64,000 nucleotides of DNA from contig NZ_CP040749.1 in NCBI RefSeq assembly GCF_006065315.1, forward strand, positions 496,001-560,000. Reading direction: 5' to 3'. Source of the DNA: Aureibaculum algae. GTDB lineage: Bacteria; Bacteroidota; Bacteroidia; Flavobacteriales; Flavobacteriaceae. Below are positions 54,845 to 64,000 of the stretch, in pieces. Every line of letters begins with the position of its first letter. Positions within the stretch are counted from its first letter, which is position 1. The notes under the pieces were generated by a model, which was not told where the DNA came from, searched no databases, and was given only the letters and a program-made list of their open reading frames with translations. The position numbers and the translations under genes are program-made.

Positions 54845-55132
54845 ATGAAAAGTAAAAAAAGTGTTCTACTACCAAAACATCAAAAATTGATGGAGCAAGT
54901 AGGAGAGAATATAAAACTGGCACGTAAAAGACGTAAATTAACAACGGTGCAGGTTTCTGAACGTGCTGATATAGATAGGACTACACTTTATCAAATTGAA
55001 AAAGGGAATCCAAAAGTTTCATTTGGTGCATATTTCAATGTGTTGAGGGTTTTTGGATTGGAAAAAGATATTTTAAAACTGGCAGCTGATGATGGGTTTG
55101 GGAGAAAATTGCAAGATTTAGACTTATTATAA
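54845..55132 (+). CDS. hipB: HipB-like antitoxin, XRE family
   Basis: This 95-residue helix-turn-helix protein (LARKRRKLTTVQVSERADID, RTTLYQIEKGNPKVSFGAYF) is followed 10 bases later by a HipA-family gene. In HipBA systems HipB neutralises HipA and represses the operon through inverted operator sites. I see no clear pair of operator repeats in the 65 bases upstream. The C-terminal tail ends in LQDLDLL. Confidence 0.9.
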   Translation: MKSKKSVLLPKHQKLMEQVGENIKLARKRRKLTTVQVSERADIDRTTLYQIEKGNPKVSFGAYFNVLRVFGLEKDILKLAADDGFGRKLQDLDLL

Positions 55133-55142
55133 TTTTGAACCA

Positions 55143-56390
55143 ATGGCACAAAATAAATTTGACATATACGTTTACGCACATTGGCAACCCATGGTTGAGC
55201 CAGAAGTGATTGGTATCCTTTCTGCACATTTTGGTAAAGGGAAAAAAGCCTTTAGTTTTGCGTATGATAAAAAATGGCTAAGGTCAAAGAACAGAATGTT
55301 GATAGATCCTGATATTCAATTTTTCTCAGGACCACAATACCCTAATAATAAAGAGAATTTTGGTATTTTTCTAGACAGTATGCCCGATACTTGGGGGAAA
55401 ACATTAATGAGACGGAGAACCGCTCAAGACGCTAAAGAAAAACAAGAAAATCCTCGAACGCTTTATGAAATAGATTTTTTATTGGGAGTCTATGATGAAA
55501 GTAGGATGGGGGCATTTCGCTTTAAAACTGATCCAAATGGTCCTTTTCTTGATGATGATGAACATAGTCCAACACCACCTTGGTCATCAATTAAAGAATT
55601 GCAGGCAGCAGCTGACGCTTTTGAAAGTGGCAATAATAATGAGATTAAAAAATGGTTGGCAATTTTGATGGCACCAGGGTCATCTCTAGGAGGTGCTAGA
55701 CCAAAAGCCAATATTATTGATGATGATAAAAATCTTTGGATTGCTAAATTCCCTTCTAAAAATGATGCCATTGATAAGGCAGCTTGGGAATACCTCGTTT
55801 ATCAATTGGCAATAGATGCAGGCATTTCAATGTCACCTTCTAAAATTGAAAAAATTTCGGGAAAGTATCATACTTTTTTTACAAAGCGTTTTGATCGTGA
55901 CAAGGGGGAGCGAATTCATTTTGCGTCCGCCATGACCATGACTGGTAATACAGAAGAAATAATTAGAGATCGGCCTGCCAGTTATCTGGAAATTGCAGAA
56001 TTTATTCAAAATTATGGAACCGATATTGATGTCAATTTAGCTCAGCTTTGGAGACGGATAGTTCTTAATATTGCTATTTCAAATACAGACGACCATTTAC
56101 GGAATCATGGATTTCTTTTAACAGAGAAAGGATGGATTCTCTCTCCGGCATATGACATAAACCCTTCGATTGATAAAGATGGACTGGCACTTAATATAGA
56201 TATGGATAATAATGCGTTGGATTTTGATTTAGCTAAAAGTGTAGGCGAGTACTTTAGATTGGATAAAGGTCAAATGAAAGGAATCTATGATGAAGTTTTA
56301 AATGCAGTAAGCAATTGGACAAATGTGGCCATTAAAATAGGCATATCAACTAAAGAAATTGAATTAATGGAATCGGCATTTAAATTCTAA
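55143..56390 (+). CDS. hipA: HipA-like serine/threonine kinase toxin
   Basis: This 415-residue protein has an N-terminal subdomain with FGIFLDSMPDTWGKTLMRRR, the glycine-rich block GSSLGGARPKANI, KFPSKND with the ATP-binding lysine, FFTKRFDRDKG and the catalytic loop at Asn314-His318 (NTDDHLRNHGF), then the metal-binding SPAYDINPS. HipA kinases phosphorylate aminoacyl-tRNA synthetases such as GltX and induce dormancy. The motif set is complete, so the toxin may be active. It is flanked by two copies of the DnaC-like gene end, indicating arrival as a cargo unit. Confidence 0.93.
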   Translation: MAQNKFDIYVYAHWQPMVEPEVIGILSAHFGKGKKAFSFAYDKKWLRSKNRMLIDPDIQFFSGPQYPNNKENFGIFLDSMPDTWGKTLMRRRTAQDAKEKQENPRTLYEIDFLLGVYDESRMGAFRFKTDPNGPFLDDDEHSPTPPWSSIKELQAAADAFESGNNNEIKKWLAILMAPGSSLGGARPKANIIDDDKNLWIAKFPSKNDAIDKAAWEYLVYQLAIDAGISMSPSKIEKISGKYHTFFTKRFDRDKGERIHFASAMTMTGNTEEIIRDRPASYLEIAEFIQNYGTDIDVNLAQLWRRIVLNIAISNTDDHLRNHGFLLTEKGWILSPAYDINPSIDKDGLALNIDMDNNALDFDLAKSVGEYFRLDKGQMKGIYDEVLNAVSNWTNVAIKIGISTKEIELMESAFKF

Positions 56391-56707: not shown

Positions 56708-57424
56708 ATGATTTTTGGATATGCAAGAAAAAGCACAGACAGTCAAAAACTGCATCTTCAAGTTGATGCTCTGTTAAAATATGGGGTGATAGAAAAGAAC
56801 ATTTATTGCGATAGCATTTCAGGTTCTAAAGTTGAAAGGGAAAATTTAAATTTGCTTCTATCTAAAGTCAGGGAAGGTGACACGATTGTAACTTGGAAAA
56901 TGGGTAGGATGGCAAGAAGTGTATCTCATATGCTAAAATTGATGAGTAATTTTAAAGAGAATGGAGTCCAGTTTGTAAGTATCCAAGAACCATTTATAGA
57001 TACAACATCTTCTTATGGCAAGTTTGTTTATACCCTTTTTAGTGCTGTTGCAGAATTAGAAAGAGATATATTAATTGAAAGAACAGTTGCTGGACAAGAA
57101 AGTGCAAGACGCAGAGGCGTTAAATTCGGAAGAAAAAAAGGGCTGTCCAAGGAAGCACAAAAAAAGGCACGATTAGCGAAAGAGTATTATTGTGATGAAT
57201 CTAAAGGCTTAACAATAAAAGAAATAATGAAGCTTCTTGATATAAAGTCAAAACCAACACTTTATAGTTACTTACAATATATGGGTCGTAGAAATTGCAA
57301 AACCTGTGAAGTTATGTTTTGGGATAAATTGCAAACAGTTGACAATTCATATTGTGATAAACATAAAGATGATAAAAAAGAGGCGGAATTTTTGAAAAAA
57401 CTTGAATCTCCAATTAATAAATAG
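56708..57424 (+). CDS. Serine recombinase (resolvase/invertase family)
   Basis: This 238-residue protein has the resolvase catalytic domain from the start (IFGYARKSTDSQ, catalytic Ser9), then DTIVTWKMGRMARS and GKFVYTLFSAVAELERDIL. A recombinase hinge and helix-turn-helix follow (GRKKGLSKEAQKKARLAK, TIKEIMKLLDI). The C-terminus adds a small cysteine/histidine cluster (CKTCEVMFW and YCDKHKDD) that resembles a zinc ribbon and is not usual for short resolvases. It could invert or resolve DNA within the island. No recombination site pair is evident beside it. Confidence 0.9.
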   Translation: MIFGYARKSTDSQKLHLQVDALLKYGVIEKNIYCDSISGSKVERENLNLLLSKVREGDTIVTWKMGRMARSVSHMLKLMSNFKENGVQFVSIQEPFIDTTSSYGKFVYTLFSAVAELERDILIERTVAGQESARRRGVKFGRKKGLSKEAQKKARLAKEYYCDESKGLTIKEIMKLLDIKSKPTLYSYLQYMGRRNCKTCEVMFWDKLQTVDNSYCDKHKDDKKEAEFLKKLESPINK

Positions 57425-57776: not shown

Positions 57777-58874
57777 ATGGGCACTCCTATTATTTATGAA
57801 CCTTTAAAAAATGCCAAACGCATAAAAATTTTTATTCCATATGAATTGTATGAAATTAGAAAAGCATTTAAAAGCCTGAATTCAACCTATTGGCATCCGA
57901 GTCAAAAACTATGGTCTATTATAAACACCCAAGAAAACATGGCATTAGTAAAACGCACATTTAAAGGGGACTTTACAATTAGTGTTGAAAAACCATTCGT
58001 ACCCATAAAAACCACCAGATTAAACGAGAAAGCTATTGATACGCTTTTAGAATTAGAAAAGACATTAGTTTTAAAGCATTATGGGCAGTCAACCATAAAT
58101 AATTATAAAAAAATGCTTTCTGTTTTTTTGACAAAATTTATGCATCAAGACCTTAAAAGTATAAGTAAAATACAAATAGAACAATTTATATACGAACTTA
58201 TAAAACTCAATAATATTAGTGAAAGTTATCAAAATCAATTGATTAACGCTATAAAGGCATATTATGAGCATGTATTGGGTTTACCAAGAGAATATTATGA
58301 TATACAACGCCCTAAAAAGAGTCAAAATATACCGAACGTTTTAAGTCAGGAAGAAGTTTTAAAAATACTACAACACCATAAAAACATTAAACACAAGGCT
58401 ATATTATGGACAATTTATAGTGCTGGATTACGAATTTCTGAATTGATTAATTTACGAATAGCTGATGTACATTCTGATGAAGGCTACTTATTTATAAAGG
58501 ACAGCAAAGGTAAAAAAGACCACAAAACTATATTATCAGATCATTTAGTAGTATTATTGAGAAAATACTACAAATTGCACAAACCATCGTATTGGTTATT
58601 TGAAGGACAAACTGGTGGTAAGTACAGTACTACGAGTATCAGAAATATTTTAAGAACAGCAATTAAGGAAACAGATTCAAATCCATGGGCAACGGTTCAT
58701 ACTCTACGACATTCATTTGCAACACACTGTATAGAAAACAATATGAATTTAAGACATTTACAAAACATGTTGGGACATAATTCACCCAAAACCACCGAAT
58801 TATATACCAAAACCATACAAATAAACAATAAAAATATCAGTAGCCCAATAGATAATTTGCTTAAAAAACTTTAA
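57777..58874 (+). CDS. XerC/D-like tyrosine recombinase of the cassette array
   Basis: I take the start at 57,777 (MGTPIIYEPLKNAKRIKIFI), giving 365 residues. An ATG 21 codons earlier lies within the tandem repeats. An unusual N-terminal domain of about 70 residues (YWHPSQKLWSII) precedes the SAM-like core-binding domain. The catalytic residues are complete: Arg219 (AGLRISELI), His308 and Arg311 (HTLRHSFATH), His334 (LGHNSPKTT) and Tyr343 (LYTKT). I do not see the extra helix patch before the H-x-x-R box that marks integron IntI proteins. The genes behind it are arranged as cassettes. Confidence 0.92.
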   Translation: MGTPIIYEPLKNAKRIKIFIPYELYEIRKAFKSLNSTYWHPSQKLWSIINTQENMALVKRTFKGDFTISVEKPFVPIKTTRLNEKAIDTLLELEKTLVLKHYGQSTINNYKKMLSVFLTKFMHQDLKSISKIQIEQFIYELIKLNNISESYQNQLINAIKAYYEHVLGLPREYYDIQRPKKSQNIPNVLSQEEVLKILQHHKNIKHKAILWTIYSAGLRISELINLRIADVHSDEGYLFIKDSKGKKDHKTILSDHLVVLLRKYYKLHKPSYWLFEGQTGGKYSTTSIRNILRTAIKETDSNPWATVHTLRHSFATHCIENNMNLRHLQNMLGHNSPKTTELYTKTIQINNKNISSPIDNLLKKL

Positions 58875-58927
58875 CTTGCAGACATATACGATATAACCAC
58901 AATAGGGTTATACATATGTTGCCCACA
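58868..58927. repeat. First cassette boundary: hairpin plus GTTG box (attI- or attC-like)
   Basis: Directly at the recombinase stop codon, CATATACGATATAACC (58,883-58,898) can pair with GGTTATACATATG (58,906-58,918). The right end continues as GTTGCCCACA (58,918-58,927). That box is the exact reverse complement of TGTGGGCAAC at 59,545-59,554, the box that opens the palindrome behind the first cassette gene. By integron logic this is the insertion point of the first cassette. Confidence 0.65.
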
Positions 58928-58949
58928 ATTAACGAAAACCCGAACTGAA

Positions 58950-59531
58950 TTGAAAAACCTGAACTTTGAAACGATATTAAAAGATGCGGAAAAATTCATC
59001 CTAACTGAAAACAACTCTTATATCCAAACTTATACAGAATTCATAAAATATTTTGACAAAATAAAAGATGGAGATATAAATGAACATAATTTGGTAATCG
59101 CAAGTCATTTCGTTTATGGTTGGATGCCAACAATAATCCACCTGAATTTGGAACAAAAAGACAAAGTTTTGTTTTTATTAAATGCTGTGAAAAGTGGACA
59201 CATTTTGACCGAAAACGAAATCGGAATTTTAAAAAAATCAATAAACAATTCTTTGGTTGGACTTTCTAAACTATTACATTTTATCAATCCGAGAGATTAT
59301 GCGATTTGGGACAGTCGAATTTTTAGATATTTAACAGAAAAGAAAAGTAGTTACGGCATTGATAGTCCAAAACTCTATCTTGACTATCTAAACGGAATTA
59401 AAAATATAGCGGAAAATAAAGATTACGGTAAATTGCACGATTTGATTTCTCGAAATTTTGAATATGACATATATCCAACAAGAGCAATTGAAATCACAAT
59501 GTTTGAGACTGACCGAAATAGACAAAGCTGA
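58950..59531 (+). CDS. Cassette gene 1, unknown protein
   Basis: This 193-residue soluble protein is read from a TTG start (no ATG fits the N-terminus LKNLNFETILKDAEKF). It is mainly helical. The most conserved-looking segment is LLHFINPRDYAIWDSRIFRY, a 'His-Phe-x-x-Pro ... Ile-Trp-Asp-Ser-Arg' phrase that I have the impression recurs in accessory proteins of unknown function. It has no membrane segment or enzyme motif. It fills a cassette of about 640 bases between complementary boundary boxes. Confidence 0.7.
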   Translation: MKNLNFETILKDAEKFILTENNSYIQTYTEFIKYFDKIKDGDINEHNLVIASHFVYGWMPTIIHLNLEQKDKVLFLLNAVKSGHILTENEIGILKKSINNSLVGLSKLLHFINPRDYAIWDSRIFRYLTEKKSSYGIDSPKLYLDYLNGIKNIAENKDYGKLHDLISRNFEYDIYPTRAIEITMFETDRNRQS

Positions 59532-59544
59532 ATAAAAAAATAAC

Positions 59545-59683
59545 TGTGGGCAACACCGTGTATATTTTATTGCTTGGTTTTAGCCTACTTACGAAAATCC
59601 TCGCGGATTTTCTATTCGGTTTTTATTTACTAAATTAGTTGTTTAAATCACGCAACAAAGCATACACAAACACGTTGTAAACC
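59545..59683. repeat. attC-like palindrome 1, behind cassette gene 1
   Basis: The left box TGTGGGCAAC (59,545-59,554) is the exact reverse complement of the cassette's left edge at 58,918-58,927. Inner arms 59,558-59,582 (GTGTATATTTTATTGC...) and 59,643-59,667 (...CAACAAAGCATACAC) pair at about 19 of 25 positions. A small perfect hairpin GAAAATCC-TCGC-GGATTTTC stands in the middle. The right end GTTGTAAACC (59,674-59,683) is the edge of the next cassette. The arms are unequal in length, as in integron attC sites. Confidence 0.7.
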
Positions 59684-59723
59684 ATTAAAAAGGGTTAAGT
59701 AGGATGGGTAAAGAAAGAAAGGA

Positions 59724-60281
59724 ATGAAAGGAATATTACATATAAAGCTGTTTGAATATCTAATAGAAACTGATGGTGCTTTTGGACATGTTGAATTAAG
59801 AAGTTTTCTTTTGAAAAATTTTAAGAATGTAGAGACCGAAAGAAGCAGGATTGAAATGAGTAGATTTTTAAAACTATTAGTTTCGGAAAATTATATTGAG
59901 TATGTGAACAAGCCAACTACTACTGGAATTGAATTGTATATTGAAAACGGGGGATTTATACCTTCAGATAAAATTTCTGCAATTGTTAGAATCAAACCTA
60001 AAGCGATTGAATTATATAATGCTCATATCGTAAATAGAAAAAATTTAAATGGCGTGAATAAGACAATAATTATTAGTTTAATTGCTGTGTCAGCTTCTAT
60101 TTTTGGACTTTTTTATCCAAAAAATCAAGCAATTGAAAAAAACGAATTTATAATAAAAGTGTATGACTCGATTATAAAATCTAACTTATACCTAAAAGAT
60201 GAGAATGACCAGTTGCGATTAAAAAAAGAAGGATTAGAACAAAAATACAAAGACACGTTGCAAACCGCATCAGATATTTAA
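59724..60281 (+). CDS. Cassette gene 2, unknown membrane-anchored protein
   Basis: This 185-residue protein has an N-terminal part that looks like a winged helix (HIKLFEYLIETDGAFGHVEL, IEMSRFLKLLVSENYIEYVN). A single transmembrane segment lies at about residues 113-129 (TIIISLIAVSASIFGLF), followed by a coiled-coil-prone tail (LKDENDQLRLKKEGLEQKYK). I do not recognise the family. Membrane-tethered small proteins of this shape are frequent among accessory and defence genes. It occupies a cassette of about 800 bases. Confidence 0.65.
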   Translation: MKGILHIKLFEYLIETDGAFGHVELRSFLLKNFKNVETERSRIEMSRFLKLLVSENYIEYVNKPTTTGIELYIENGGFIPSDKISAIVRIKPKAIELYNAHIVNRKNLNGVNKTIIISLIAVSASIFGLFYPKNQAIEKNEFIIKVYDSIIKSNLYLKDENDQLRLKKEGLEQKYKDTLQTASDI

Positions 60282-60371
60282 AAGGAAGAAATTCTAGGAA
60301 TAAATAATAATCAATAAACTTGAAAATTTTATCTATTTTAGAATCATCAAACTCTGAAAAACGCATGGCAC

Positions 60372-60479
60372 ACCAACGTTTTACAACAAAGTATAAAGCT
60401 AATACGCCAATACAATGTTTAGTTTATGGAAGTAACTTCTTTTATTTGGCGTACTATCCTTATACCAACGTTGGGCAAC
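60372..60479. repeat. attC-like palindrome 2, behind cassette gene 2
   Basis: The box GTTTTACAAC (60,378-60,387) is the reverse complement, at 9 of 10 bases, of this cassette's left edge GTTGTAAACC (59,674-59,683). Inner arms GTATAAAGCTAATACGCCAA (60,391-60,410) and TTGGCGTACTATCCTTATAC (60,446-60,465) pair at 17 of 20 positions. The site ends in GTTGGGCAAC (60,470-60,479), which contains GTTGGGC, an exact match to the integron R' consensus GTTRRRY. The 94-codon frame over this region is not a gene. Confidence 0.78.
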
Positions 60480-60607
60480 ATACAAGGAAAGCCAACGCAC
60501 TAACAGCACATTTGGTTTTTGCCGACAAAAAAGTCAACGCTGAAAAAACAAAAAGAGCTGTTTTTTGCCAACGCTCTGACAACAATGGACAAAATGCATT
60601 TTAAAAA

Positions 60608-62752
60608 ATGATAACTAAGCTTAATAACCTCACTCTCAAGTCTTTTGTTGGTTACACAAACCCCAATGATTTACTTTTTCGTGCAAAAAACATTCTATTC
60701 GGTTACAATGGAAAAGGAAAAAGTTCTATTGCTATTGGCATTAAAGATGAATTTCTAAAAGACTTAACCAAGAAGCCTGAGAATCTTAGAATTTTTGATA
60801 GAGATTACATTTCAAATTCATTATTGATTGAAAATTCGGACGGAAAAATTAAAGGTGTTGAGGCAAGTTTTGGTAAAGGTGGCGTTGATATAGAAAACAA
60901 GATTAAGGAACTTCAGAAGTTAATTATCAAAGAAGATGAAATTGGTAATCTTGACACAGGCATTGCCAAATTACGCAAAGAAATTAGAACTGAAATAGAC
61001 AAAATTCACGATAGACGAAAAGGCGAAGCTAATATTCAAAGAAAGTCCAAAGAAGAATCTGTTAAACGAGTAATTGAACTTTATAAAAAGGATTTTCAGG
61101 ATGCTAAAAAAATTGAAGTGGATGAAGATAAATTGATAAAGATTAATGGCGACAATGCAATTGAAAAACAAATTTCACAAAATGAGAATTTAAAACCATT
61201 AAACTTCTCAAAAATTCAAACACCTTTAATTGAAAAAGTAAAAGTAATCTTCAAAGAAAAATTTGGAGAAGATATTTCAATCCCCGAATTTGAAGTTGTT
61301 CAATGGATTGAATCAGGACTAAAACTTCACAAAGAAGGTGATAACTGCAAGTTCTGTGATAGCAAGTTAGATTTTTCAGATGTTAAGTTGAAAATAGCGG
61401 AATACAAAGAAAATAAAAGACATAAGGCAACTGAGAAACTAAAACAACTAAGAGAACAGCTTCAAAGCCTTTTGGATAGTATTAGAATTATTGAGAAAGA
61501 ATCCAAAACTTATTCTACAAATATTGGCAATGAGGTTGAGCAACGTTTTACTGCAATAACCGAAAAGAAAAGCACTATAGACTCTCTTATAACTTCGTGT
61601 CAATCGAAGATTGATAACATTGAAATTCAAGAAAATTTCGATTTTGAACTTTTAGAAGAAACCTCGAAAGGGATTGAAGAATCAATATCAACTATCGCTA
61701 AAACTAAAAATGAACAATTATCGGAGTTAAGAAAGAAGCAAAACAATCTAACCACTTTAGTAAAAGGTGCAATTGGCTTGGAAATACTAAAATCAGCCAC
61801 TATAAAAGATAAGCTAAAGGAGATTAAAGTCAAGGAAGTTGAATTAAAGGAAAAGCGTGAGAGCAACAAGAAGAAGCAACAAGAAATTCAAGATTTAAAG
61901 CAACAAAAAAGTCTAACAAAAGATTTTGCTGATTTTGTTTCGCAAATTCTGAATGACATAAATATATCGCTAAAAGTTACCCTCGATACAGATAACCGCA
62001 ATTATATTATCAAAGGCACCAATGAAAACGCTACGCTAACAATTAAAGACATAAGTGAAGGAGAAAAAAATCTTTTAGCATTGTTGTTTTTCTATTATGA
62101 ACTTTTTGCTGATAGCAAACAGCAGAATATTAAACCAGAAATTGAACTTATCATAGTGGACGACCCAATTTCAAGTATGGATGATTCAAATAAGTTTTAC
62201 ATTTTGGAACTGATGAAAAACCTTTTGGAACTTCAAAATCAGCAGATTTTCGTTATGACCCATACTTGGGACGACTACTGTAATTTATCATATGGTAAGG
62301 ATAACAATCAAACTTTTGCAACTTTTGAAATAAGAAAAAATAATGGAGTAAGTACATTGGCTAAATTGTCAAGTAAAGAAAAACCATATAACTATTTGTT
62401 TAAAGAGATTTATGAATTTTCAAGAAAAAGTGATGAAGATATAAAGACAGAGTGCCAAATTTATCACTATCCAAATGTAATGAGAAGAATTTTTGAAGAA
62501 TGGTATGGATTTAAAATTGGAAGAGATTTGAACTTTACAAGTAATCTTCAAAAGCAAATTGAAAGTCATTTCAGCATTACAAGTAACAACCAAAAAACAA
62601 AACTCGGTTTGTTAATCAAAGTTTGCAATATTCTTTCTCATTCGATAAATGGTTCAATGAATCCTCAAGAAATTCATCAATCCGCAAAATATTTGATGAG
62701 ACTTATTGAAGATAAAGACAAATTACATTTTGACAATATGAAACCACAATAA
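60608..62752 (+). CDS. RloC/PrrC-like AAA ATPase with zinc hook, candidate anticodon nuclease
   Basis: This 714-residue ABC-type ATPase has Walker A at residues 32-40 (GYNGKGKSS), long coiled coils, and a Cys-x-x-Cys zinc hook at Cys247-Cys250 (NCKFCDSKL) between them. Near residue 490 comes the signature ISEGEKNLLALLFF, then Walker B IIVDDPISSMDD. The C-terminal part contains MRRIFEEWYGF (an Arg-x3-Glu) and NILSHSI with a histidine, reminiscent of the Arg-Glu-His triad of PrrC/RloC tRNA anticodon nucleases. A phage-defence role is likely. The nuclease call is tentative. It has its own cassette. Confidence 0.8.
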   Translation: MITKLNNLTLKSFVGYTNPNDLLFRAKNILFGYNGKGKSSIAIGIKDEFLKDLTKKPENLRIFDRDYISNSLLIENSDGKIKGVEASFGKGGVDIENKIKELQKLIIKEDEIGNLDTGIAKLRKEIRTEIDKIHDRRKGEANIQRKSKEESVKRVIELYKKDFQDAKKIEVDEDKLIKINGDNAIEKQISQNENLKPLNFSKIQTPLIEKVKVIFKEKFGEDISIPEFEVVQWIESGLKLHKEGDNCKFCDSKLDFSDVKLKIAEYKENKRHKATEKLKQLREQLQSLLDSIRIIEKESKTYSTNIGNEVEQRFTAITEKKSTIDSLITSCQSKIDNIEIQENFDFELLEETSKGIEESISTIAKTKNEQLSELRKKQNNLTTLVKGAIGLEILKSATIKDKLKEIKVKEVELKEKRESNKKKQQEIQDLKQQKSLTKDFADFVSQILNDINISLKVTLDTDNRNYIIKGTNENATLTIKDISEGEKNLLALLFFYYELFADSKQQNIKPEIELIIVDDPISSMDDSNKFYILELMKNLLELQNQQIFVMTHTWDDYCNLSYGKDNNQTFATFEIRKNNGVSTLAKLSSKEKPYNYLFKEIYEFSRKSDEDIKTECQIYHYPNVMRRIFEEWYGFKIGRDLNFTSNLQKQIESHFSITSNNQKTKLGLLIKVCNILSHSINGSMNPQEIHQSAKYLMRLIEDKDKLHFDNMKPQ

Positions 62753-62880
62753 AGTAATGAAACGACAAGCCCTCACATACAGCCACACACATTGCCAAAC
62801 CTCTCAATCCAACAGCACAAACCAAAGTTTGTCAATAAGTGTGTCTGACCCAACCCTCGGACTGAAAAACAAAAAGTACG

Positions 62881-63015
62881 ATTGCCCAACAATGGCTATA
62901 CCTAATGCGGGCGAAAGTGCTAACATGAAAGTTAATACATCAAATAAACGTTTCGGTAAACGGACAGTAAAGTGCCTTGAAATCCCGCACTACGCATAGC
63001 CGAGCCGTTGGCAAC
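62881..63015. repeat. attC-like palindrome 3, behind the ATPase cassette
   Basis: The box ATTGCCCAAC (62,881-62,890) is the reverse complement, at 9 of 10 bases, of the ATPase cassette's left edge GTTGGGCAAC (60,470-60,479). It contains GCCCAAC, an exact RYYYAAC match. Inner arms GGCTATACCTAATGCGGG (62,894-62,911) and CCCGCACTACGCATAGCC (62,984-63,001) pair at 15 of 18 positions. The right end GTTGGCAAC (63,007-63,015) is the edge of the next cassette. The 294 bases between the ATPase and the next start hold only this site and its lead-in. Confidence 0.78.
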
Positions 63016-63046
63016 AAGCTAAAGAAACACCCGAACATAAATTAAA

Positions 63047-64000
63047 ATGAGTGCAAAAAACATACATTCTGAACCTTTTGATGGAGGAACAATAACAAAA
63101 CTCGAAATATTTGAGGATTATGCTCAAGCTTGGATACCAACATTTTTACCACAAGCTCACTTTGGGGAGATTCATATATTTGACTTTTTTTCTGGACCAG
63201 GTTATGATTCAAATAATATAGCTGGAAGTCCAATTCGTCTTTTAACCAAAATAAATGAGCATTTAGGCAATATCTTAAGAACTAAAACTAAAATTGTTCT
63301 TCACTTCAATGAATTTGAGCCTAATAGAAAAGCACAGAATAAATTTGAACTACTAAAAAAGAATTGTGAAGATTTCATTTCACAAAATCCCAAATTTAAA
63401 TATTTCCTTACTGTAAACTATTACAATGAAGATGCTGGAGATTTATTCTTCAAATTAATTCCAACAATTAAAGAATATCCGTCATTAGTCTATTTAGACC
63501 AAAACGGTGTGAAATTTATTTCCCAAGAATATATTGATGAACTTGAAAGATTAAATACAACTGATTTTATCTATTTTGTTTCATCTTCTTTTTTTAGAAG
63601 ATATGGAATGACAGAAGAGTTTAAAAAAGCTTTAGAAATAGATATTGCAGAGTTAGAAAGTGAGGAATATCGAAATATGCATCGTTTGGTTTTCAATAAA
63701 ATCAATTCAAGACTTCCAGAAAAATCAGAACTAAAATTATTTCCTTTTTCAATAAAGAAAAATAGAAATATTTATGGAATCATATTTGGAGCAAAGAATT
63801 ATGCAGCAGTTGATAAATTTTTGAAAATAGCTTGGAAAAGAAATAACTTAAACGGAGAAGCTGATTTTGACATTGATGAGGATAAAAGTAAAATTCAACT
63901 CGATATGTTTGAGGGACAAAAATTGACTAAAGTTGAAAAATTCAAAAACGAATTAGAGTCCAAACTTTTAAACAGAAAAACAGTTACAAATAAAACTGTT
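63047..64000 (+). CDS. tcmP: Three-Cys-motif partner protein TcmP (partial, runs off the window)
   Basis: The frame from ATG at 63,047 stays open for 318 codons to the window end. It begins MSAKNIHSEPFDGGTITKLE and has the methyltransferase-like motif IHIFDFFSGPGYDSNNIAGS, then VLHFNEFEPNR, SLVYLDQNGVKF and a SSSFFRRYG block. These match the TcmP family, which is encoded with three-Cys-motif (Gp37/Gp68-type) proteins in likely nucleic-acid modification or defence units. The partner gene would be expected just beyond the window. It is the fourth cassette of the array. Confidence 0.8.
   Translation, partial: MSAKNIHSEPFDGGTITKLEIFEDYAQAWIPTFLPQAHFGEIHIFDFFSGPGYDSNNIAGSPIRLLTKINEHLGNILRTKTKIVLHFNEFEPNRKAQNKFELLKKNCEDFISQNPKFKYFLTVNYYNEDAGDLFFKLIPTIKEYPSLVYLDQNGVKFISQEYIDELERLNTTDFIYFVSSSFFRRYGMTEEFKKALEIDIAELESEEYRNMHRLVFNKINSRLPEKSELKLFPFSIKKNRNIYGIIFGAKNYAAVDKFLKIAWKRNNLNGEADFDIDEDKSKIQLDMFEGQKLTKVEKFKNELESKLLNRKTVTNKTV

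Follow-up and report, generated by a model that had tools for sequence, protein, structure and literature searches.

Does a flavobacterial chromosome carry an integron whose recombinase lacks the segment by which integron integrases (IntI) are defined? Integrons capture genes and are known to spread antibiotic resistance; the question is raised by the right end of the stretch analysed here, 64,000 nucleotides (hereafter the window) at positions 496,001–560,000 of the single 5,168,958-base chromosome of Aureibaculum algae; feature positions are counted within the window unless given as genome positions. There, a tyrosine recombinase gene is followed by single genes with palindromic sites behind them. 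The locus probably forms the leading end of a chromosomal integron that is of a separate type and lacks the IntI patch, a reading to which we give a probability of roughly 85%: an integron by its anatomy and logic, without the defining segment of the enzyme, and here partly eroded by insertion sequences (IS).

An integron cassette starts with the R′ half of its own site. A preliminary description of this DNA had reported that each left edge is the reverse complement of a box (R″) in the palindrome behind the same gene, and the recount agreed. The match between GTTGCCCACA at 58,918 and the reverse complement of TGTGGGCAAC at 59,545 is perfect (10/10), and no other 10-mer of the window reaches 9/10; GTTGTAAACC at 59,674 pairs with the box at 60,378 and GTTGGGCAAC at 60,470 with that at 62,881, both at 9/10, a score also reached at two further places in the window for the former and at one for the latter. 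For the wider comparison, the eight bases after GTT at a left edge were compared with those eight that precede AAC in the following site, with the fixed letters excluded, in 184 of 245 consecutive pairs (28 from this genome, 102 from G030, the single-contig genome of a different genus in the family, and 54 from other genomes); the remaining 61 were left out, AAC or GTT being absent near the expected place or the sites lying more than 4 kb apart. The mean score of an edge against the R″ of its own cassette was 6.33/8, compared with 2.58 (s.d. 0.10) for shuffled R″ boxes, 2.94 for the highest mean among 2000 shuffles, 2.81 for the R″ of the next cassette and 2.92 for the palindrome containing the edge. 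On average, the edge pairs with the palindrome of its own cassette, in line with what had been claimed. Positions 4–9 of the edge matched in 91–97% of pairs despite several bases occurring at each, so base pairing is maintained through paired differences. In the same array beyond 64,000, complementarity continued, with five of the eight scored pairs at 6 or 7 of 8 and an IS end in place of R″ in two of the three that failed. The edge rule is unconfirmed for cassette 4 (63,007), since no TTGCCAAC occurs within genome positions 558,900–562,900 and its own R″ was not found there. The pairing past the window and in other genera upholds the description of an integron-like cassette array.

Sites were located with a covariance model (R1), built from 17 sites of this genome and holding 12 base pairs, because nhmmer overlooked two of the three window sites. 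Its matches in the window (59,546–59,690, 60,379–60,486 and 62,882–63,023) are no independent test, as all three sites are among the training sequences. Across this genome the model gave 88 matches at E ≤ 1 and 80 at E ≤ 0.01, clustered, with one strand kept in each cluster. The bottom strand of the window sites forms a long hairpin and is the more stable (bottom/top −17.0/−12.8, −17.8/−12.9 and −19.4/−15.7 kcal/mol), and it folded more stably in 182 of 201 sites. In known attC sites the strand signal consists of extrahelical bases, whereas here the asymmetry lies in A·C mismatches of the outer stem that become G·T on the bottom strand (opposed A·C 503 vs G·T 18, in elements with at least 12/18 paired). 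Position 11 of the edge, which matched in 0 of 184 pairs, carried A in all 184 against an R″ complement of G in 151, C in 22 and T in 11; A against G reads as A·C on the top strand and G·T on the bottom strand.

The sites mostly keep to one side of the recombinase. Three relatives of its gene lie in the same chromosome, at genome positions 1,394,603 (95% identical), 2,761,641 and 3,815,120 (both 40%), all with model sites behind them on their own strand; the same holds for 11 of 13 further recombinase contigs, L077 having no site and L078 having sites on the other side. A survey of the best 80 of 137 loci covered Flavobacteriaceae, Algoriphagus, Cyclobacterium, Chitinophaga, Saprospiraceae, Bacteroidales, Marinilabiliales and others, some of the loci coming from genomes also present in a 60-genome search (L103 is a contig of G009). 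Its 147 sites lay downstream on the recombinase strand in 136 cases, downstream on the opposite strand in none and upstream in 8 + 3, although 690 kb of upstream vs only 311 kb of downstream sequence was covered. Loci with at least 1.5 kb downstream had a site in 40 of 49 cases, the remaining 31 of the 80 ending sooner; of eight further contigs two had sites, and the other six have less than 0.9 kb behind the recombinase. Among the 60 genomes, 30 of the 31 whose recombinase match reached 150 bits contained sites, vs 13 of the 29 others (p = 6 × 10^−6). The preliminary description had made its reading depend on arrays lying beside related recombinases, and that is where they were found.

That the palindromes are merely repeats, terminators or IS targets, unrelated to recombination, is hardly credible. 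Several IS families do enter the sites at fixed places (two DUF772/DDE_Tnp_1_6 types and one rve type were seen at fixed points of the hairpin or just past the left edge), but such a reading is contradicted by the edge scores, and it leaves unexplained both the pairing of an edge with its own far-end R″ instead of the surrounding palindrome and the one-sided placement of sites behind the recombinase.

The recombinase itself was compared with curated profiles. Against the IntI profile TIGR02249 (cut-off 265 bits) it scored 177 bits in two stretches, and seven other members of its clade scored 193–216, likewise in two stretches each, the controls IntI1 and IntIA reaching 505.7 and 522.5. It differs from XerC and XerD in falling below both of their cut-offs (147.5 and 152.7 bits; cut-offs 335.15 and 329.6), and it failed the XerA-type profile NF040815 (184.2; cut-off 220), which three of the seven others passed (238.9, 221.5 and 222.5). 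As the preliminary description had stated, there is no IntI patch: 58–64 residues separate the flanking anchors in the 26 measured rows of the 34 in the clade vs 100–101 in the 13 measured rows of the 22 for IntI, with 60 in XerA (27 of 67 rows lack the anchor pattern). A C-terminal tail motif was present in 34/34 clade rows, 22/22 IntI rows and 0/9 XerC/D rows. The extra N-terminal domain that had also been described is real; it spans about 88 residues, and R, K, P, H, W and S positions are conserved in an alignment of 42 sequences. Predicted alone, it reached a pLDDT (predicted local distance difference test) of 89.1; the full-length prediction had a pTM (predicted template modelling score) of 0.47 and was of low confidence near the catalytic tyrosine. 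Weak similarity links the domain to HARP (PF07443) and the XPB N-domain, which are akin and both bind DNA junctions. A fold search with the domain returned nothing significant, and no HARP chain was among the 50 matches listed; HARP identity is a lead.

Both trees placed the recombinase clade, which belongs to Bacteroidota, beside IntI (support 94/78 and 100/89); one truncated row and one duplicate were excluded, and not all rows from the locus set have array sites. The lineage is probably a branch beside the IntI integrons. The preliminary description had proposed an independently evolved system, in which an XerA- or XerD-type recombinase would have evolved its own cassettes and the likeness to attC and attI would be convergent. 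This is unlikely. It would fit the missing patch, with the same spacing in XerA, and the closest solved relative by sequence, an archaeal Xer; approximately unbiased tests on the two trees also allow the clade to join XerA (p = 0.075 and 0.288) or Xer (p = 0.149 and 0.28), no placement being rejected. Against it stand the position in both trees, the tail motif held in common with IntI, and the GTT start of the R boxes and the cassette logic, which are the same as in integrons. Cassette arrays and tail motif also separate the clade from the Xer recombinases.

Another explanation would leave the neighbouring recombinase incidental and make the arrays the remains of an ordinary integron, on which a canonical IntI acts from elsewhere. 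Integrase-less site clusters are common among known integrons, according to the part of the IntegronFinder 2.0 paper used here (PMC9024848), and 84 of the 296 genomes searched across the phylum have a canonical IntI above the cut-off, in other classes, with one in the class of the window among the matches listed. In the family, by contrast, 0 of 199 genomes have one (the same search matches an intI1 plasmid, and the family search itself had no control match). Site placement and strand follow the neighbouring recombinase (136/147), and zero model sites were found beside the IntI genes of the phylum, so the model does not cover attC sites at large. We regard this explanation as very improbable; the two types of integron may exclude each other by class. 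Sites occurred in 43 of 60 genomes, this one included, at E 0.01 and in 59 of 246 genomes of the order at E 10^−6, the counts per genome (up to about 51 and 12, respectively) being lower bounds; of 295 genomes in the class, 150 had a recombinase match at E 10^−50, and these may include members without arrays. The patch-less branch would be frequent in Bacteroidia.

The claim that cassettes are exchanged as units was borne out by comparison of arrays. Two arrays of G030, about 500 kb apart, have cassettes in common, and 231 of 316 repeat ends fell within 16 nt of a predicted boundary where 2.6% was expected, although pairs were counted from both sides and many stem from one 0.56-kb cassette, and the ends are not independent. 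Cassettes are also common to genera (92% between G030 and G009, 85% between G030 and G016, which is of the genus of this strain). Conserved gene order, named in the preliminary description as a sign against exchange, was contradicted: near-identical recombinases are followed by differing cassettes in G009 and G016 and at two close copies in this genome, where the attI-like site is the same and the sequence then diverges. This attI-like site is identical at the second genome copy and similar at 1.982 Mb, in G016 and in G009, and the sequence after GTT differs each time. Within this genome, a 1,055-nt stretch (98% identity) occurs at the 1.982-Mb attI-like site and again past the first site of the 2.761-Mb array, with the likeness starting exactly at GTT. 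Much of the other repetition here consists of IS elements. The longest cassette open reading frame (ORF) lay on the array strand in 185 of 202 cases (45 of 59 in this genome). Among 77 of 85 G030 cassette proteins scanned there were 69 Pfam families, including helicases, acetyltransferases, dehydrogenases and immunity-protein families, and matches to 66 PADLOC models, including HerA and HamB.

Separately, a cassette of about 0.56 kb was seen at no fewer than 13 places across both G030 arrays (L059–L065), at about 96–100% identity. On a plasmid of Chryseobacterium sp. SNU WT5 (L081), a clade recombinase precedes two model sites at E < 10^−5 and two weaker ones, and the cassettes there are interspersed with an IS110 and a group II intron.

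Several observations count against an integron at this locus. The reading is drawn from sequence comparison. The edge rule is weaker in this genome by itself (4.61/8 in its 28 pairs vs 2.27 shuffled, as compared with 6.67 in G030 and 6.57 in the others), and many of its sites are interrupted by IS elements. Sites are missing from 9 of the 49 loci with at least 1.5 kb downstream, the clade members of G026 and G017 have no array behind them, and sites nevertheless occur in 13 of the 29 genomes that lack a strong recombinase match. No detected site lies where the 1,055-nt repeat ends on its right, and ordinary homologous recombination could also exchange repeats.

Arrays that are real but inactive here, their remnants spread by IS elements and homologous exchange, are a quite unlikely reading. 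In its favour, of 91 listed sites in this genome, 58 are free of six IS-end strings and 33 are not, the edge rule is weaker, and one cluster has an attI-like site with no recombinase in front. On the other side, the recombinase genes are open, two that are 95% identical have different first cassettes, and G030 has dense, intact arrays with near-identical cassettes. The cluster in question (F, in L020) is headed by the attI-like site at genome positions 1,982,258–1,982,308, and no recombinase remnant was found in the preceding 6 kb.

The features of the locus are collected in table 1.

Table 1. Features assigned at the window locus, with IS insertions in sites of other loci (positions within the window or the named locus).
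Feature	Position	Strand	Basis or remark
Tyrosine recombinase, 365 residues, patch-less IntI relative	57777–58874	+	PF00589, PF13495; TIGR02249 177 bits; tree clade adjoining IntI
Extra N-terminal domain of recombinase, about 88 residues	57777–58040	+	Alignment of 42; predicted alone, pLDDT 89.1; weak HARP likeness
attI-like site, inverted repeat ATAACC...GGTTAT, putative insertion point GTT (58,918)	58890–58920	+	Same or similar at other loci
Cassette 1; gene 58,950–59,531, no family found	58918–59673	+	Edge vs R″ at 59,545, 10/10
attC-like site of cassette 1 (R″ 59,545–59,554; R′ at 59,674)	59545–59674	+	Folding, covariance model
Cassette 2; gene 59,724–60,281, no family found	59674–60469	+	Edge vs R″ at 60,378, 9/10
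attC-like site of cassette 2	60378–60470	+	Folding, covariance model
Cassette 3; gene 60,608–62,752, AAA_13 ATPase like candidate phage-defence PDC-S06	60470–63006	+	Edge vs R″ at 62,881
attC-like site of cassette 3	62881–63007	+	Folding, covariance model
Cassette 4, start; gene from 63,047, TcmP (three-Cys-motif partner), like candidate phage-defence PDC-M30A	63007–64000	+	Continues beyond window
IS insertions in sites	L023:11346–13119; L011:6470–8140; L009:9459–10205		Also many sites of this genome

The attC-like site of cassette 2 has an 87-bp copy of 100% identity at genome position 1,562,152. The recombinase gene is immediately preceded by one for a serine resolvase (56708–57424) in the same orientation, and two neighbouring ORFs at 54845–56390 resemble a HipB/HipA-type pair. 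An Rfam scan of 56–64 kb gave four matches with E values of 3.3 to 8, none near the gathering score.

Like the IntI integrons (the Vibrio superintegron, class 1), the system has one-strand arrays of one-gene cassettes, hairpin sites with R″ and R′ boxes starting with GTT, edge/R″ complementarity, an insertion site behind the recombinase, a more stable bottom strand and the C-terminal tail motif in the enzyme. It differs from them in the missing patch and added N-terminal domain of the recombinase, and in the orientation of its gene, which runs the same way as the array, whereas in most known integrons the integrase gene is directed away from the array. The integrons of archaea likewise lie outside the well-known groups and were found by genome survey, but their IntI is stated to bear the IntI-specific domain (PMC9668308, in the passages cited here), which the recombinase here lacks. 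Surveys of intI, as far as the cited passages describe them, choose genes by the patch or additional domain (PMC2426708, PMC9668308), and this selection is why the branch would have been overlooked. Excerpts of the literature name Bacteroidota among the integron-bearing phyla (PMC8618304) and report for Bacteroidetes, with IntegronFinder 2.0, one complete integron, in Salinibacter, where earlier there was only In0 (PMC9024848). No description of a patch-less integron was found in searches of the open-licence literature of PubMed Central, preprints lying outside that scope, and one may exist elsewhere.

Two reported cases resemble the system. In Riemerella anatipestifer, the resistance gene aph(3')-IVb integrates free of homology together with 27 bp of upstream and 140 bp of downstream flank, and the downstream flank folds like attC; the mechanism is called 'yet to be fully elucidated', and the passages cited name no recombinase (PMC13148043). 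These cassettes are like those described here in their attC-like 3′ fold, their single chromosomal place and their host, which is of the same order or class. The second case is the xerD-tet(X3)-res-ISCR2 unit of Acinetobacter, as described in the part of the source used here (PMC8635130); its truncated xerD product (221 residues) groups within the recombinase clade. In plasmid pHH1107 (L080:4028–6200) and in L079, tet(X3) lies behind the truncated clade recombinase and an attI-like inverted repeat, and its place after the repeat and GTTATGTGCC is that expected of a first cassette. The edge matched a candidate R″ at 7/10, only 30 nt of the 3′ flank matched an Algoriphagus locus (90%, E = 0.004), and no model site was found in the two stretches searched (best E 0.6); tet(X3) as a cassette is suggestive.

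In the mechanism that we propose for the patch-less integron, the recombinase would take in single-gene cassettes at the attI-like site directly behind its gene, with DNA cut and rejoined at G|TT of the R′ boxes. A cassette would move as a circle in which R″ of its terminal hairpin site pairs with the bases that open the cassette. The likely substrate is the bottom strand, given its better folding. We infer recombination by this enzyme, on a folded single-stranded substrate and through circular intermediates, and the N-terminal domain may help to bind the folded site. In its widest form, the reading would make the lineage a second great integron branch and the chief means of cassette capture in Bacteroidia, using folded sites, an A·C/G·T strand mark and an enzyme without the patch but aided by its N-terminal domain, and it would have passed resistance genes, tet(X3) among them, to other bacteria; this joint picture is tentative, and we lean somewhat away from it as a whole.

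A working integron without the patch, if true, would change the view of what the enzyme needs, since the patch has been described as necessary for recombination (PMC9668308, in the part cited), and patch-based surveys would by design pass over the lineage. It would offer an explanation open to testing for the capture of genes without homology in Riemerella, which would fit, and perhaps also for the past of tet(X3), and it would open a large store of mobile genes, some of them like candidate phage-defence genes.

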